The position numbers and the translations under genes are program-made. This document shows positions 40,540 to 45,914 of a stretch of DNA of 64,000 nucleotides, in pieces. The stretch lies in contig NZ_AP017470.1 of the NCBI RefSeq assembly GCF_016592575.1, positions 1,684,501 through 1,748,500 on the forward strand. The letters run 5' to 3'. Position 1 is the stretch's first letter; the number at the start of each line of letters is the position of its first letter. This stretch comes from Thermotomaculum hydrothermale (GTDB lineage Bacteria; Acidobacteriota; Holophagae; Thermotomaculales; Thermotomaculaceae). The notes under the pieces were generated by a model that saw only the letters and a list, made by a program, of their open reading frames with translations, made no database searches and was not told the origin of the DNA.

Positions 40540-40665
40540 ACAATTCTCCAATCTTCTCCTATCAATTACAATAACCATTAAAAGTAGTACTTTCAGTTTT
40601 TAATGCTATAACACTGGTTTAAAAGTTTCAAATTTTTCCATTAAGGAGTATTAAAAAAATTTTTA

Positions 40666-40693
40666 TTGACAATTGTGATTTGTGTGATAACTT
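40666..40693 (+). promoter_or_regulatory. Promoter of the aromatic amino-acid operon
   Basis: Consensus TTGACA at 40666-40671. The -10 is imperfect: TAACTT at 40688-40693 (16-nt spacing) or GATAAC within TGTGATAAC. Transcription would start about at the first leader ATG (40701). Confidence 0.5.
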
Positions 40694-40700
40694 TTATAGC

Positions 40701-40766
40701 ATGATGAAGACGGATATGAATACAGGCAGACAGTACTTTTATTTTTATTACTTTTATTTAAAATAA
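40701..40766 (+). CDS. Phe/Tyr leader peptide of the aro-phe-tyr operon
   Basis: 21-codon frame (alternative in-frame ATGs at 40704 and 40716) ending TAA 40764-40766. Codons 12-19 encode Tyr-Phe-Tyr-Phe-Tyr-Tyr-Phe-Tyr, so ribosome movement depends on charged tRNA-Tyr and tRNA-Phe, the end products of the genes downstream. No strong ribosome-binding site is visible; the message may be nearly leaderless. The stall site lies right after hairpin arm 1 (40725-40733), as required for attenuation. Confidence 0.82.
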
Positions 40767-40827
40767 GGGCTGTCTGCTTAAAATATGCGAGCCGCAGGGC
40801 AGACAGTCCTGCGGCTTTTTCTTTTTT
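40725..40827 (+). promoter_or_regulatory. Transcription attenuator with mutually exclusive hairpins
   Basis: Arm 1 GCAGACAG (40726-40733, inside the leader frame), arm 2 CTGTCTGC (40770-40777), arm 3 GCAGACAG (40799-40806). The terminator stem GCCGCAGG/CCTGCGGC (40791-40798, 40808-40815) encloses arm 3 as its loop and runs into TTTTTCTTTTTT (40816-40827). With free translation, 1:2 pairs and the terminator forms. With the ribosome stalled in the Tyr/Phe run, arm 1 is covered, 2:3 pairs over 8 bp and breaks the terminator. Confidence 0.85.
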
Positions 40828-40850
40828 ACAAAGCCGCGAAACCATACTAA
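40785..40850 (+). CDS. Possible second leader peptide overlapping the attenuator
   Basis: A 21-codon frame starting ATG 40785 reads through the first terminator and its U-tract ([13 protein letters not shown]) and stops at 40848-40850 within the second terminator. It contains two Phe and two Tyr codons. A ribosome at its end would cover the 5' arm of terminator 2. No ribosome-binding site precedes it, so this is speculative. Confidence 0.25.
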
Positions 40851-40866
40851 GGTTCGCGGCTTTTTT
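40833..40866 (+). terminator. Second terminator in the aro leader
   Basis: GCCGCGAAACC (40833-40843) / GGTTCGCGGC (40851-40860), one bulged A, 7-nt loop, followed by TTTTTT (40861-40866). It lies between the attenuator and the aroF start, so transcripts that escape the first terminator must also pass this one. Confidence 0.8.
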
Positions 40867-40897
40867 GTTTTTAAAAGCATTTATCTGGGGGGAAAAG

Positions 40898-41731
40898 ATG
40901 AACAATTTAAGACTTGCTAAAAAGAAAAAGGAAAAAACAATTGTAAAGGTGGGGAATGTTGAAATTGGGAAAGACTTTGTCATTATGGCAGGGCCATGCT
41001 CTGTTGAAAGCGAAGAACAGACTATCACAATTGCAAAGTATGTAAAGGAAGCAGGGGCAAACATTTTAAGAGGCGGGGCATTTAAACCGAGAACCTCACC
41101 CTACTCCTTTCAGGGATTGGGATTGAAGGGGCTGAAAATACTTGCAAAGGCAAGGGAGTTAACAGGGCTTCCGATAATAACCGAGGTAATTGACCCGAGG
41201 GATGTTCAGTGGGTTTCAGAATTTGTTGACATTCTCCAGATTGGCGCAAGGAATATGCAAAACTTTTCCCTTTTAAAAGAGGTTGGAAAGGTAAACAAAC
41301 CTGTTATGCTTAAAAGGGGAATGCACTCAACAATTGTTGAATGGCTATCCTGTGCTGAATATATATTAAATGAGGGCAATCCAAATGTGATTTTATGCGA
41401 AAGGGGAATAAGGAGTTTTGAAACCTACACAAGGAATACCCTTGACATTTCAGCAGTTTCAGTTGTTAAAACCTTAAGCCACTTGCCTGTAATAGTTGAC
41501 CCATCACACGCAACAGGAAGGCCTGAATTAATCCCCCCAATGAGCCTTGCTTCCGTTGCTTCTGGGGCAGACGGCATAATGGTTGAGGTGCACCACAAGC
41601 CTGAAGAGGCATTAAGCGATGGGGCACAGGCTTTATTGCCTGAAGAATTCAATACACTTGTAAAACAGGTGAGAAACCTTGTAAACTGTATGAAAGACAT
41701 TAATCCATACTTTGTAAAGGAAAGAAAATGA
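40898..41731 (+). CDS. aroF: 3-deoxy-7-phosphoheptulonate (DAHP) synthase
   Basis: 277 residues from the ATG at 40898 (GGGGGG upstream); the longer frame from 40865 overlaps the second terminator. First step of the shikimate pathway: PEP + erythrose-4-phosphate to DAHP. Class I-beta core with no regulatory domain: [92 protein letters not shown]. With no ACT or chorismate-mutase domain for feedback, control may rest largely on the attenuator. Overlaps aroA by 4 nt. Confidence 0.95.
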
Positions 41732-42984
41732 TAAAGGTTTTGCCTTCTGAAATTTCTGGAACGATAAAAATTAACCCTTCAAAATCTATTACACAGAGGG
41801 CATACGCTATTGCATCACTTTGCAATGAAAAAAGCGTAATCTTAAATCCGTCAAATAGCGACGACAGCCTTTCGTCTTTAAATATTGTAAAAGGAATGGG
41901 GAGTATTGTTGAAAGATACGAGAATTCAGTTGAAATTATAGGGCTAAAAAGAGAGGTAAAGGAAAAGTTCAACTGCAATGAGGCAGGGCTTTGTATAAGA
42001 ATGTTTACCCCCATTCTTTCCCTTTTTGAAAAAGAGATTGAGATTACAGGTAAAAACAGCCTTTTAAAAAGGCCTGTTGGAATGATGGTAAAGCCTCTTG
42101 AAAGATTGGGAGTAATTCTTGAAACCAACAACGGTTACCCCCCGATTAAAATAAAAGGGAAACTTAAAGGCGGATATACAGAGGTTGACGGAAGCATTAC
42201 TTCCCAGTTTCTAACAGGGCTTTTAATAGCCTTAACCCAGGTGGAAGAAAATTCTGAAATTAAGGTTAAAAACTTAACAAGCAAACCATACATTGACCTT
42301 ACACTTGATTTGCTTGAAAAAACAGGTGTAACAATTGAAAACAGGAATTATGAAACATTCTTCATAAAACCAAAGAAACTAAAGCCATTGAATATTAAAG
42401 TTGAGGGAGACTTCTCATCAGCCTGCTTTATGCTTGTATCAGGGGCAATTGGGGGAAAGGTTAGAGTTGAAAACCTGAATCCAGATTCCAAACAGGCAGA
42501 CAGGGAAATACTGAATATTTTACTGCAATCAGGTTGTAAAATTAAAATTGGAGAGAATTTTATAGAGACAGAACAATCCACAATTAGAAACTTTGAAATA
42601 GATGTAACAAATTGCCCTGACATTGTGCCTTCAATTATTCCCCTTGGGGCAAAGGGGGAAAAACCTTCAAAGATTTACGGAATTTCAAGGCTAAGGTTTA
42701 AAGAAAGCAACAGAGTTGAAGGGCTGATTGAAGAATTTTCAAAGATTGGAGTAAAAATTGAGGCTGACGAAAACTCAATGACAGTTTACCCATCAAACAT
42801 TATTGGGGGAAAAGCAGATTCAAGAAATGACCACAGGCTTGCAATGGCTCTTGCAGTATGCGGTCTTGTGTCAAAAAATGGAGTTGAAATTGAAAACTAC
42901 AAATGCGTTTCAAAGTCTTATCCTAATTTCTTTGAGGATTTAAGAAAACTTAAAGGAAAAGTAATTATAGAGGGGGGAAAATGA
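41728..42984 (+). CDS. aroA: 3-phosphoshikimate 1-carboxyvinyltransferase (EPSP synthase)
   Basis: 418 residues. Transfers enolpyruvyl from PEP to shikimate-3-phosphate. [17 protein letters not shown] (PEP/S3P-binding Lys), [34 protein letters not shown] and the C-terminal [28 protein letters not shown] are family blocks. The N-terminal [13 protein letters not shown] is where most enzymes read NSGTAxR, i.e. a divergent active-site loop (NEAGLCIR). Four-nt overlaps with both neighbours. Confidence 0.94.
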
Positions 42985-44045
42985 ACCTTGAAAAAGTGAG
43001 AAAAGAGATTGACACAATTGATTTTGAGATTATTAAACTATTAAACAGGAGAATGGAATTAGCCTTAACCTCAAAAAAGTTTAAAAAAAAGGTATTTGAC
43101 CCTGAAAGGGAAAAGCAGGTTCTCGCAAATGTTATCAATTACGCACACGGCGTTATCTCACCAGAATTTACCAAAAAACTTTTTTCCACCGTTTTGGAAG
43201 AGAGTAAATCCCTTCAAAGCAAGGATTACAAATTAATTGCTTTTCAGGGAGAGCACGGGGCGTATGGAGAGATTGCAGCGGGAAACTTCAATGGAAAAGG
43301 GATAGCCATTCCCATTAACACATTTGCAGATGTCTTCAATGGAGTTGAAAAGGGGTACTACGACTTTGGAGTTGTGCCTGTTGAAAATTCTTTAGGCGGT
43401 TCAATTCTTGATGTAAATGACCTTCTCGTCAAACACAATGTCTTTGTAATAAAGGAAATTCCAGTCAAAATCCAGCACAGCCTTTTAGTTCTTCCAGACA
43501 CAAATTACAGGGATATTAGAGTTGTTTACTCTCACCCTCAAGCACTCTCTCAATGCAAAGACTTCCTTGAAAGACACAACTTTGAAGCAAGGCCATACTA
43601 TGACACTGCAGGGGCTGCAAAAATGCTATTTGAAGAAAAACCAGACGCAACTGCGGTTATAGCAAATAAATTATGTGCAAAATTGTATCACCTTGAAGTG
43701 CTAATGGAAAATATTGAAGACCACTCTGAAAACATTACAAGGTTTTTTGCACTTTCAAACAAGCCTCAAACAAAGGGAGACAAAACATCAATTATTTTCT
43801 CTGTGAAGCACAAGGCTGGAAGTTTGTTCAATATACTTAAAATCTTTGCAGAAAACAAAATAAACCTTACAAGGATAGAATCAATGCCTGTAAGCGGTAC
43901 ACCTAACACCTATATGTTTTTCATTGATTTTGAGGGAAGTAGCGATGATAACCACATTAAAAAAACCCTAAATTTAGTAAAAGAAAATACAGACTTTTAC
44001 AAATGGCTTGGAAGCTACAATAAGGGGGAAATAGTATGCGAATAG
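42981..44045 (+). CDS. pheA: Bifunctional chorismate mutase/prephenate dehydratase (P-protein)
   Basis: 354 residues. N-terminal AroQ chorismate mutase (~1-80; RKEIDTIDFEIIKLLNRRMELA), prephenate dehydratase (~88-265; AFQGEHGAYGEIAA, GVVPVENSLGGSILDV, SHPQALSQCKDFLER, AIANKLCA-like VIANKLCAKLYHL, ENITRFFAL) and an ACT regulatory domain (GSLFNILKIFAENKINLTRIESMP). Usual ESRP is ESMP here, close to the Phe-binding site of the ACT domain. Produces phenylpyruvate. In the attenuated operon. Confidence 0.95.
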   Translation: MNLEKVRKEIDTIDFEIIKLLNRRMELALTSKKFKKKVFDPEREKQVLANVINYAHGVISPEFTKKLFSTVLEESKSLQSKDYKLIAFQGEHGAYGEIAAGNFNGKGIAIPINTFADVFNGVEKGYYDFGVVPVENSLGGSILDVNDLLVKHNVFVIKEIPVKIQHSLLVLPDTNYRDIRVVYSHPQALSQCKDFLERHNFEARPYYDTAGAAKMLFEEKPDATAVIANKLCAKLYHLEVLMENIEDHSENITRFFALSNKPQTKGDKTSIIFSVKHKAGSLFNILKIFAENKINLTRIESMPVSGTPNTYMFFIDFEGSSDDNHIKKTLNLVKENTDFYKWLGSYNKGEIVCE

Positions 44046-44815
44046 CAATAACGGGAATGGGGAAAATGGGGCGTTTTTTAGCAGAAATTTTAAAAAAACA
44101 CAATCTCTTTCTATACGACATTAATCCAGAAAAGTTGAAAAACATTAACATTGAAAATGCAGTTATTTCAAACAACCTTGAAGAGATTACTGAATTTAAC
44201 CCTCATATTGTAATAAACGCAGTCAACCTTAAAAATACAATCCCTGTTTTTAAAGAGTTAGAGGAATTTATATCCCCTAAAACAATAATTGGGGATATTG
44301 CCTCTGTTAAAGGAGACATAATTGATTATTACAAAAGCGCAAAAAATCCATTTTTCTCAATTCACCCTATGTTTGGCCCAACCTTTGCAAACTTGAACAA
44401 GGTAAAGGGGGAATGCGTTGTAATTATGGAAGAATCAGACCACTTAGCAAAAGAGTTTTTTACAGAACTTTTTGAAGACTTAGGCTTAAAGATTTACCAC
44501 TTCTCACTTGAAGAGCACGACAGAACAATGGCTTACTCTCTCACCCTTCCCTTTGTTGCAACCTTTATTTTTGCAGGCTGCATTGACATAAAAACAGTGC
44601 CAGGCACAACATTTAAAAAACACCTTGAAATAGCAAATGGGCTTTTAAGCGAAGACAACTTCCTTTTAAGCGAAATACTCTTTAACAAACACTCGGTTAA
44701 GGAGATTAATAAAGTGCAGTCTCAATTAGAGTATTTGAAACACATTATAAATCAAAAAGACAGCGAAACAGCCTTTGATTACCTTGACAGTTTAAGAAAA
44801 AATATAGAGGTATAA
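44036..44815 (+). CDS. tyrA: Prephenate dehydrogenase
   Basis: 259 residues, short for the family. N-terminal NAD(P) fold ITGMGKMGRFLAEILKKHNLFLYD, then GDIASVKGDII, SIHPMFGPTF (catalytic His region), EEHDRTMAYSLTLPF in the helical dimerisation domain. Converts prephenate to 4-hydroxyphenylpyruvate, giving the Tyr branch. No ACT domain. Start overlaps pheA by 10 nt with GGGGGAA as ribosome-binding site inside pheA. Confidence 0.92.
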   Translation: MRIAITGMGKMGRFLAEILKKHNLFLYDINPEKLKNINIENAVISNNLEEITEFNPHIVINAVNLKNTIPVFKELEEFISPKTIIGDIASVKGDIIDYYKSAKNPFFSIHPMFGPTFANLNKVKGECVVIMEESDHLAKEFFTELFEDLGLKIYHFSLEEHDRTMAYSLTLPFVATFIFAGCIDIKTVPGTTFKKHLEIANGLLSEDNFLLSEILFNKHSVKEINKVQSQLEYLKHIINQKDSETAFDYLDSLRKNIEV

Positions 44816-44816
44816 A

Positions 44817-45914
44817 ATGGTTGAATTTGCAAATAAAATAAATTTAATACCAGAGTATGTGCCGGGAAAATCAATTGAGAATATATCGGGAAAGTGGGGA
44901 ATCAAGCCTGAAAAAATTGTTAAGTTAGCATCAAACGAAAACCCCCTTGGGCCACCTGAAGAGGTTGTAAATTTTCTTGAAAAGGAAGTAAAAAATGTAA
45001 ATATTTACCCAGATAGAATTGGGATAAGCCTTTTAAAAAAACTATCAGAGTATTACAGCATTTCTGTTGAAAACCTTTTTATCGGCAACGGCTCAAGCGA
45101 AATTGTTGATATGCTTTGCCGCATTATGCTAAATCCGGGGGATTCCGGATTAACCTATGAAAAGGAATTTGCACTATACAAAACCTGCATAAAAGCAAGC
45201 GACGGAGAATTAATAGAAATTCCACTTGAAGAAAATTTCAAAAGAAATGTTGAAGCAATACCTAAAAATGTTAACGAAAACACAAAGGTAATTTTTATAG
45301 CAAATCCAAATAATCCGACAGGGGATTTTATTGAAAAAGATAACCTTGTTGAAACTATTGAGAAAATCCCTGAAAATGTTTTAACGGTTGTTGACGAGGC
45401 TTACATTGAATACATTGGGGAAGAAAACTCGCTTCTCAATTACTTTAAAGAAAGTGGAAGGGAAAACCTTGTAATTTTAAGAACCTTTTCAAAGATTTAC
45501 GGGCTTGCAGGATTGAGGGTCGGTTACTGCTTTGCAGATAAAAATATAATTAATGCTTTAAGGAAGATTAAGCTTCCGGTTAATGTTCCTTACCTTTCTC
45601 AAAAGGGGTGTGAGATAGCATTAGATTGCGAAAACTTTAAAGAAAAATCAAGAAGACTTGTTGAAGAGGAAAAGTTAAGAATTTTCGAAATTTTTAAACA
45701 AAACAATATAGAGTATATTGAGGCAAAGGGAAACTTTTACCTTGTAAAAGACAATAATGCAAGCAAAACAGTTGAAAAACTTGAATCAAAAGGTGTGGTG
45801 GTAAGAAGTCTGAAACCTTACAGCATTGACAATTATTTCAGAGTAACTGTGGGAACAGAAAGACAAAACAATATTTTTCTTGAAGAGTTTTTAAAAACAA
45901 GGGGAAAAAATTAG
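44817..45914 (+). CDS. hisC: HisC-like aminotransferase, probably aromatic
   Basis: 365-residue class I/II PLP aminotransferase: KLASNENPLGPPEEV, IYPDRIGISLLKKLSEYY, FIGNGSSEIVDMLCRIML, FIANPNNPTGDF, VVDEAYIEYIGEE, TFSKIYGLAGLRVGYCF (PLP lysine in FSK). Closest in form to histidinol-phosphate aminotransferase, but no his gene is nearby. Placed one base after tyrA at the end of the Phe/Tyr operon, it most likely transaminates phenylpyruvate and hydroxyphenylpyruvate. HisC enzymes with dual roles are well known. Confidence 0.9.
   Translation: MVEFANKINLIPEYVPGKSIENISGKWGIKPEKIVKLASNENPLGPPEEVVNFLEKEVKNVNIYPDRIGISLLKKLSEYYSISVENLFIGNGSSEIVDMLCRIMLNPGDSGLTYEKEFALYKTCIKASDGELIEIPLEENFKRNVEAIPKNVNENTKVIFIANPNNPTGDFIEKDNLVETIEKIPENVLTVVDEAYIEYIGEENSLLNYFKESGRENLVILRTFSKIYGLAGLRVGYCFADKNIINALRKIKLPVNVPYLSQKGCEIALDCENFKEKSRRLVEEEKLRIFEIFKQNNIEYIEAKGNFYLVKDNNASKTVEKLESKGVVVRSLKPYSIDNYFRVTVGTERQNNIFLEEFLKTRGKN

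Follow-up and report, generated by a model that had tools for sequence, protein, structure and literature searches.

The region upstream of a five-gene aromatic operon in the window analyzed here, a 64-kb stretch of DNA (G000:C1:1684501-1748500) from a 2.32-Mb single-contig genome, very probably functions as a ribosome-mediated transcription attenuator sensing charged tRNA-Phe and tRNA-Tyr. This degree of confidence concerns the attenuator as such; a possible relay between its two tandem terminators (T1 and T2) is rated separately. Sequence and conservation support the leader, the pairing arms, T1, T2 and the operon, all on the + strand. Judged from its sequence, the element is of a known kind, with those features of a classical ribosome-mediated attenuator that can be examined in this way. 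Phe/Tyr attenuation by the ribosome had been proposed in a preliminary description of this DNA, and both the anatomy and the conservation within the family agree with it. On the other hand, T2 and the probable leaderless start had been missed, and the hisC gene is not there for histidine.

The leader peptide, its arms and the first terminator

The leader ORF (40701-40766) has 21 codons and reads ATG ATG AAG ... TAC TTT TAT TTT TAT TAC TTT TAT TTA AAA TAA, with the aromatic run starting at nt 34 and the stop at nt 64. The eight consecutive Tyr/Phe codons claimed for this frame can be read directly (Tyr-Phe-Tyr-Phe-Tyr-Tyr-Phe-Tyr, 40734-40757). Such a run occurs once across the 64-kb window and was recovered in 3 of 20,000 dinucleotide shuffles of 40660-40900. 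The promoter (40666-40693) consists of a -35 TTGACA (40666-40671), a 16-nt spacer and a -10 TAACTT (40688-40693). The -10 hexamers of the seven family leaders are TAACTT, TATTTT, TAGTTT, TATTCT, TATGCT, TATGCT and TATAAT. Since the distance from the end of the -10 box to the leader ATG is fixed at 7 nt in 7/7 family members, and no Shine-Dalgarno was found upstream of the leader AUG in the family leaders, the leader is probably leaderless. Transcription would then start at or beside the AUG, with the ribosome loading on the fresh 5' end. Leader peptides whose transcripts start at the AUG are known for trpL of S. meliloti (PMC7298713) and leuL/trpL/ilvL of Streptomyces lividans (PMC8079986). 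Those cases differ in amino acids and phyla, and the start in the window is predicted from promoter spacing only.

All three 8-nt arms claimed before were confirmed, with GCAGACAG at 40726-40733, CTGTCTGC at 40770-40777 and GCAGACAG again at 40799-40806. Among the 20,000 dinucleotide-shuffled versions of 40660-40900, 90 had an A-A'-A alternation of 8-mers. Arm 1 (GGCAGACAG, 40725-40733) overlaps the leader ORF, its last base directly preceding the first Tyr codon, and can pair with arm 2 if not covered by the ribosome. Arm 2 (GGGCTGTCTGC, 40767-40777) adjoins the leader stop codon with its first base. Arm 3 (40797-40810) overlaps the top and loop of T1 and forms with arm 2 an antiterminator of at most 14 bp. 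The 2:3 helix has 11 bp, pairing GGGCTGTCTGC (40767-40777) with GCAGACAGTCC (40799-40809), and reaches 14 bp in a constrained fold; it is longer than first claimed because arm 3 extends into the T1 3' arm. T1 (40789-40827) is the hairpin GAGCCGCAGGGC-AGACA-GTCCTGCGGCTT (40789-40817) followed by a U-tract. The terminator previously described with the last arm as its loop is thus present, but arm 3 corresponds to the stem top plus the loop, not to the loop alone.

RNA folding, recommended as a check, gave -65.9 kcal/mol for the 170-nt leader against a shuffle mean of -35.3 (z -9.0, 0/200). At equilibrium, T1 and T2 are both more stable than the antiterminator state, therefore the mechanism depends on the order of folding. 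Greedy co-transcriptional folding was dropped, since it is trap-prone at low barriers and allowed RNA to pair across the ribosome, and a four-helix master-equation model was used instead. With arm 2 free, this kinetic model returned P(T1)=0 in 7/7 leaders; with arm 2 covered, P(T1)=1 in all seven.

We suggest that with plentiful Phe and Tyr the ribosome would reach the UAA and cover arm 2, since this arm starts at the next base, leaving T1 to form. T1 would end transcription about 125 nt in, with T2 as a further barrier. Under a shortage of charged tRNA, the ribosome is expected to stall within the run and cover arm 1 while arm 2 stays free. The 2:3 helix would then form before the T1 3' arm is made, preventing T1. 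If no ribosome is present, arms 1 and 2 would pair and T1 would terminate.

Conservation in the family and the second terminator

Seven complete leaders, spanning two genera, and one partial leader were recovered from the family. The proposed comparison with related genomes supports the attenuator: 7/7 complete leaders keep the codon run, the re-paired arms and the terminators with diverged sequence. All seven have exactly 21 codons, the run from nt 34 and the stop at nt 64, and their peptides include QFYFWFYFYFN and QFYFYYFYFYR. The 2:3 pairing is kept with different sequences in the window genus (g1; GGGCUGUCUGC/GCAGACAGUCC) and in its sister genus (g2; GGCUGUCGCCG/CGGUGAUnAGCC, with one bulge). 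The nearest named record, an acidobacterial MAG (L031), encodes an AroF 91% identical to that of the window; the class relatives fall into other families. The leader of this genus member (L031:1985-2050) has a Trp codon within the run (QFYFWFYFYFN), and the TrpE match is stronger in its genome (2e-113) than in the window's genome (2e-71).

T2 (40830-40870), absent from the preliminary description, has a hairpin at 40830-40863 with a bulged upper stem, followed by the U-tract TTTGTTTTT. It is found in all family members, including the partial G001 leader, 9-13 nt after T1 and with a U-tract. Between the two genera, the T1 stem is GCCGCAGGGC versus GGCCGTGCGG and the T2 stem GCCGCGAAACC versus GGGCCGTGAAT; given these differences, both stems were replaced with pairing kept. 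Tandem terminators are also found downstream of aromatic leaders of DAHP synthases in Desulfobacterota. The presence of T2 implies that expression of the operon should require more than antitermination at T1.

A possible relay between the terminators

Left to itself, T2 would still stop the polymerase; we therefore propose a relay in which the T1 3' arm, freed by the 2:3 helix, would capture the T2 5' arm once it is made and keep T2 open. The putative relay hairpin (40811-40837) would pair GCGGCTTT (40811-40818) with AAAGCCGC (40830-40837), abutting the 2:3 helix. The pairing T1 3' and T2 5' arms are UGCGGCUUU/AAAGCCGCG in the window genus and CACGGCCCAU/AUGGGCCGUG in the sister genus. We hold this disabling of T2 as a tentative proposal, to which we give somewhat less than even chances, because of limits set by the energetics and because the reciprocal pairing is matched as duplication would give.

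An alternative with about an even chance of being right keeps the same attenuator and takes T2 as a plain fail-safe of limited efficiency, with no relay, the likeness of the stems coming from duplication or from G/C strand bias. In nine lineages, the true T1-T2 combinations sum to -151.0 kcal/mol against a permuted mean of -111.3 (p 8e-5). The p-value is 0.001 without near-duplicates and 2e-5 without the window's family. With a tenth lineage included (L155), whose tandem terminator came to light after the relay hypothesis was formed, 0 of 100,000 permutations reached the observed value (p<1e-5). The null in these comparisons is cross-lineage permutation; terminators of the window were set aside for this purpose because they are mostly weaker hairpins. 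The reciprocal pairing, T1 5' arm with T2 3' arm, is likewise matched (p 8e-4), as a duplication predicts, although its sum of -122 is weaker than the -151 of the relay. Against duplication or strand bias, the stem likeness was kept while the stems themselves changed between genera and in independent lineages. Moreover, the relay helix in the family occupies only the portion of the T1 3' arm left free by the 2:3 helix, the two helices being 0-1 nt apart. In Syntrophales, arm 3 is on the T1 5' side and the relay can use the entire T1 3' arm (L068).

In the window genus, the energetics favor the fail-safe. The T2 hairpin exceeds the relay hairpin in stability by 0.7-7 kcal/mol in the three genus members; at 60 C the difference narrows to 3.4, 1.0 and -1.2 kcal/mol. 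Under most model settings T2 also forms in this genus with or without a coaxial term, being favored over the relay helix with P mostly 0.8-1.0; the exception is G004 with the coaxial bonus (P 0.18-0.80). In the sister genus, P(T2) falls to ~0.01 only with a coaxial stacking term of -3 kcal/mol, and is 0.71-1.0 without it. In the window genome with 2:3 holding, the model still lets T2 form (R->T2 barriers of 3-6 kcal/mol), therefore the ON state is not explained there by energetics alone. In 18/18 cases, the part of T2 left free by the relay has no stable nucleation, either lacking free pairs or lying at ~+1 kcal/mol or higher. A strong T2 under no control would silence the operon, which argues against a plain fail-safe.

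Returning to the relay, the two terminators would be interlocked, so that a single ribosome-sensing event switches two of them in series. It is conceivable, with the odds slightly against it, that the DAHP-synthase leaders of Acidobacteriota and Desulfobacterota have retained this logic or evolved it anew. No description of a relay was found in the literature searched for tandem terminators with a leader peptide, and the relay is possibly a new element. If true, it would give a tight OFF without loss of the ON state, and a simple design principle by which one sensor switches terminators in series, useful for building RNA circuits.

Two further readings question the attenuator itself. The leader could act in trans as a small protein or small RNA, the hairpins being the 3' end of a small RNA gene. 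The terminated product would indeed be an RNA of ~125 nt with a translatable ORF, and rnTrpL/peTrpL of S. meliloti is a known case of such a product acting in trans (PMC7298713). We find this reading very improbable, since conditional termination best accounts for the alternating arms and for the way they re-pair across genera, and the gap of 27-31 nt between T2 and aroF in the window leaves little space for a separate promoter. Still less credible is a T-box or TRAP-like leader sensing tRNA or a protein, or a riboswitch, with an incidental short ORF: terminator/antiterminator alternatives alone would fit several leader types, but frame, codon run and stop keep their exact nucleotide positions while the flanks diverge, T1 lies 25-29 nt beyond the leader stop wherever this spacing was measured from that stop in the family, and no Rfam family reaches its gathering score. 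The covariance-model search of the leader returned nothing at the cut-off, with sub-threshold hits such as RF04312 falling far short of it (33.8 versus 59 bits), and T-box, riboswitch and other known RNA families were rejected on these scores.

The operon, known systems and other aromatic leaders

The attenuator precedes aroF (core-only DAHP synthase, 40898-41731), aroA (EPSP synthase, 41728-42984), pheA (chorismate mutase-prephenate dehydratase-ACT, 42981-44045), tyrA (prephenate dehydrogenase, 44036-44815) and a hisC-type aminotransferase (44817-45914), whose substrate would be aromatic acids or prephenate. These genes abut or overlap and their identities are clear by Pfam and NCBIfam, in line with the five-gene aromatic operon first claimed. 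AroF aligns to profile positions 75-334 of 338 and is devoid of the N-terminal part of the profile, on account of which control at the transcript level may replace feedback inhibition of this DAHP synthase. Searches of six family genomes (G000-G005) recovered neither HisG nor HisD, while both were detected in class relatives and in 13/14 controls. This rules out a histidine role of the hisC homologue, as well as histidine control, and the aminotransferase most plausibly catalyzes the final step of Phe and Tyr synthesis. For IlvB, the family genomes yielded nothing beyond weak, partial matches below the cut-off. The family is likely composed of His and branched-chain auxotrophs that retained the hisC-type enzyme for aromatics. 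Upstream of pheS, a trpE-like gene and two other DAHP-synthase-like genes of the same genome, we found no aromatic leader.

The trp, his and pheA attenuators of E. coli have a leader peptide rich in the end product, arms 1-2-3, a terminator, a 2:3 antiterminator and a stop codon that places the ribosome over arm 2. The window attenuator has the same leader, arms, terminator, antiterminator and stop placement. It differs from them in sensing two residues together, in being probably leaderless, in its acidobacterial host and in having two tandem terminators with matching stems.

Phe/Tyr attenuation had been said to be rarely described outside Proteobacteria. This holds for the literature searched; however, F/Y leaders are not rare in sequence, and one has been published for Corynebacterium glutamicum. 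According to the excerpt consulted, aroF of that species has a Phe-Tyr-Phe leader peptide seen as a short transcript (PMC4046766); as in the window, the gene for DAHP synthase follows an F/Y leader peptide. It has three control codons where the window has eight, and the excerpt describes, unlike the window, neither a tandem T2 nor a five-gene operon. Two adjacent Rho-independent terminators under one leader peptide, as in the window, are reported for the erm(K) attenuator (cited in PMC4335068). There the stall is drug-induced, instead of depending on tRNA charging, and no T1-to-T2 relay for erm(K) was found in the excerpt of this citing literature. The attenuator survey of Naville and Gautheret (2010) also has a tandem terminator, at the rimP leader, and leader peptides, in Firmicutes (PMC2965389). 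As far as we searched, an acidobacterial example with comparative support and a matched double terminator is new. In a phylum with almost no assigned attenuator function (PMC2965389), attenuation by tRNA charging would be the likely means of controlling aromatic synthesis.

Aromatic leaders ahead of DAHP synthase were found in Desulfobacterota, Clostridia and several other acidobacterial families, and none was seen in class relatives. In the AroF tree, the family falls within a 39-row clade (support 100/98) with Desulfobacterota and other acidobacterial families, away from class relatives. This placement fits horizontal movement of the enzyme type, many of whose members have leaders, and associates leader peptides with a single DAHP synthase clade.

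In other Acidobacteriota (L211, L212, L213, L217 and L215), the aromatic codons upstream of aroF run into a short stop-codon hairpin, e.g. TACGGACGC-TTCTAA-GCGTCCGTA. C/T-rich DNA comes next with no U-tract terminator, and this is possibly a Rho-type attenuator. A delta-type genome has a second aromatic leader (MIISDQPWQNFYFYSYWRGMSMC, L032:3065-3136) which, together with a terminator, lies ahead of a shikimate-kinase-like ORF and suggests a leader regulon. Clostridia (L085, L090, L098, L099 and L110) have F/Y-rich leaders upstream of aroF, e.g. QFYYYYFFMNKR followed by a stop. They share a 'tagcgatttgtgctgca'-like motif followed by one terminator and look like a separate, uniform attenuator family.
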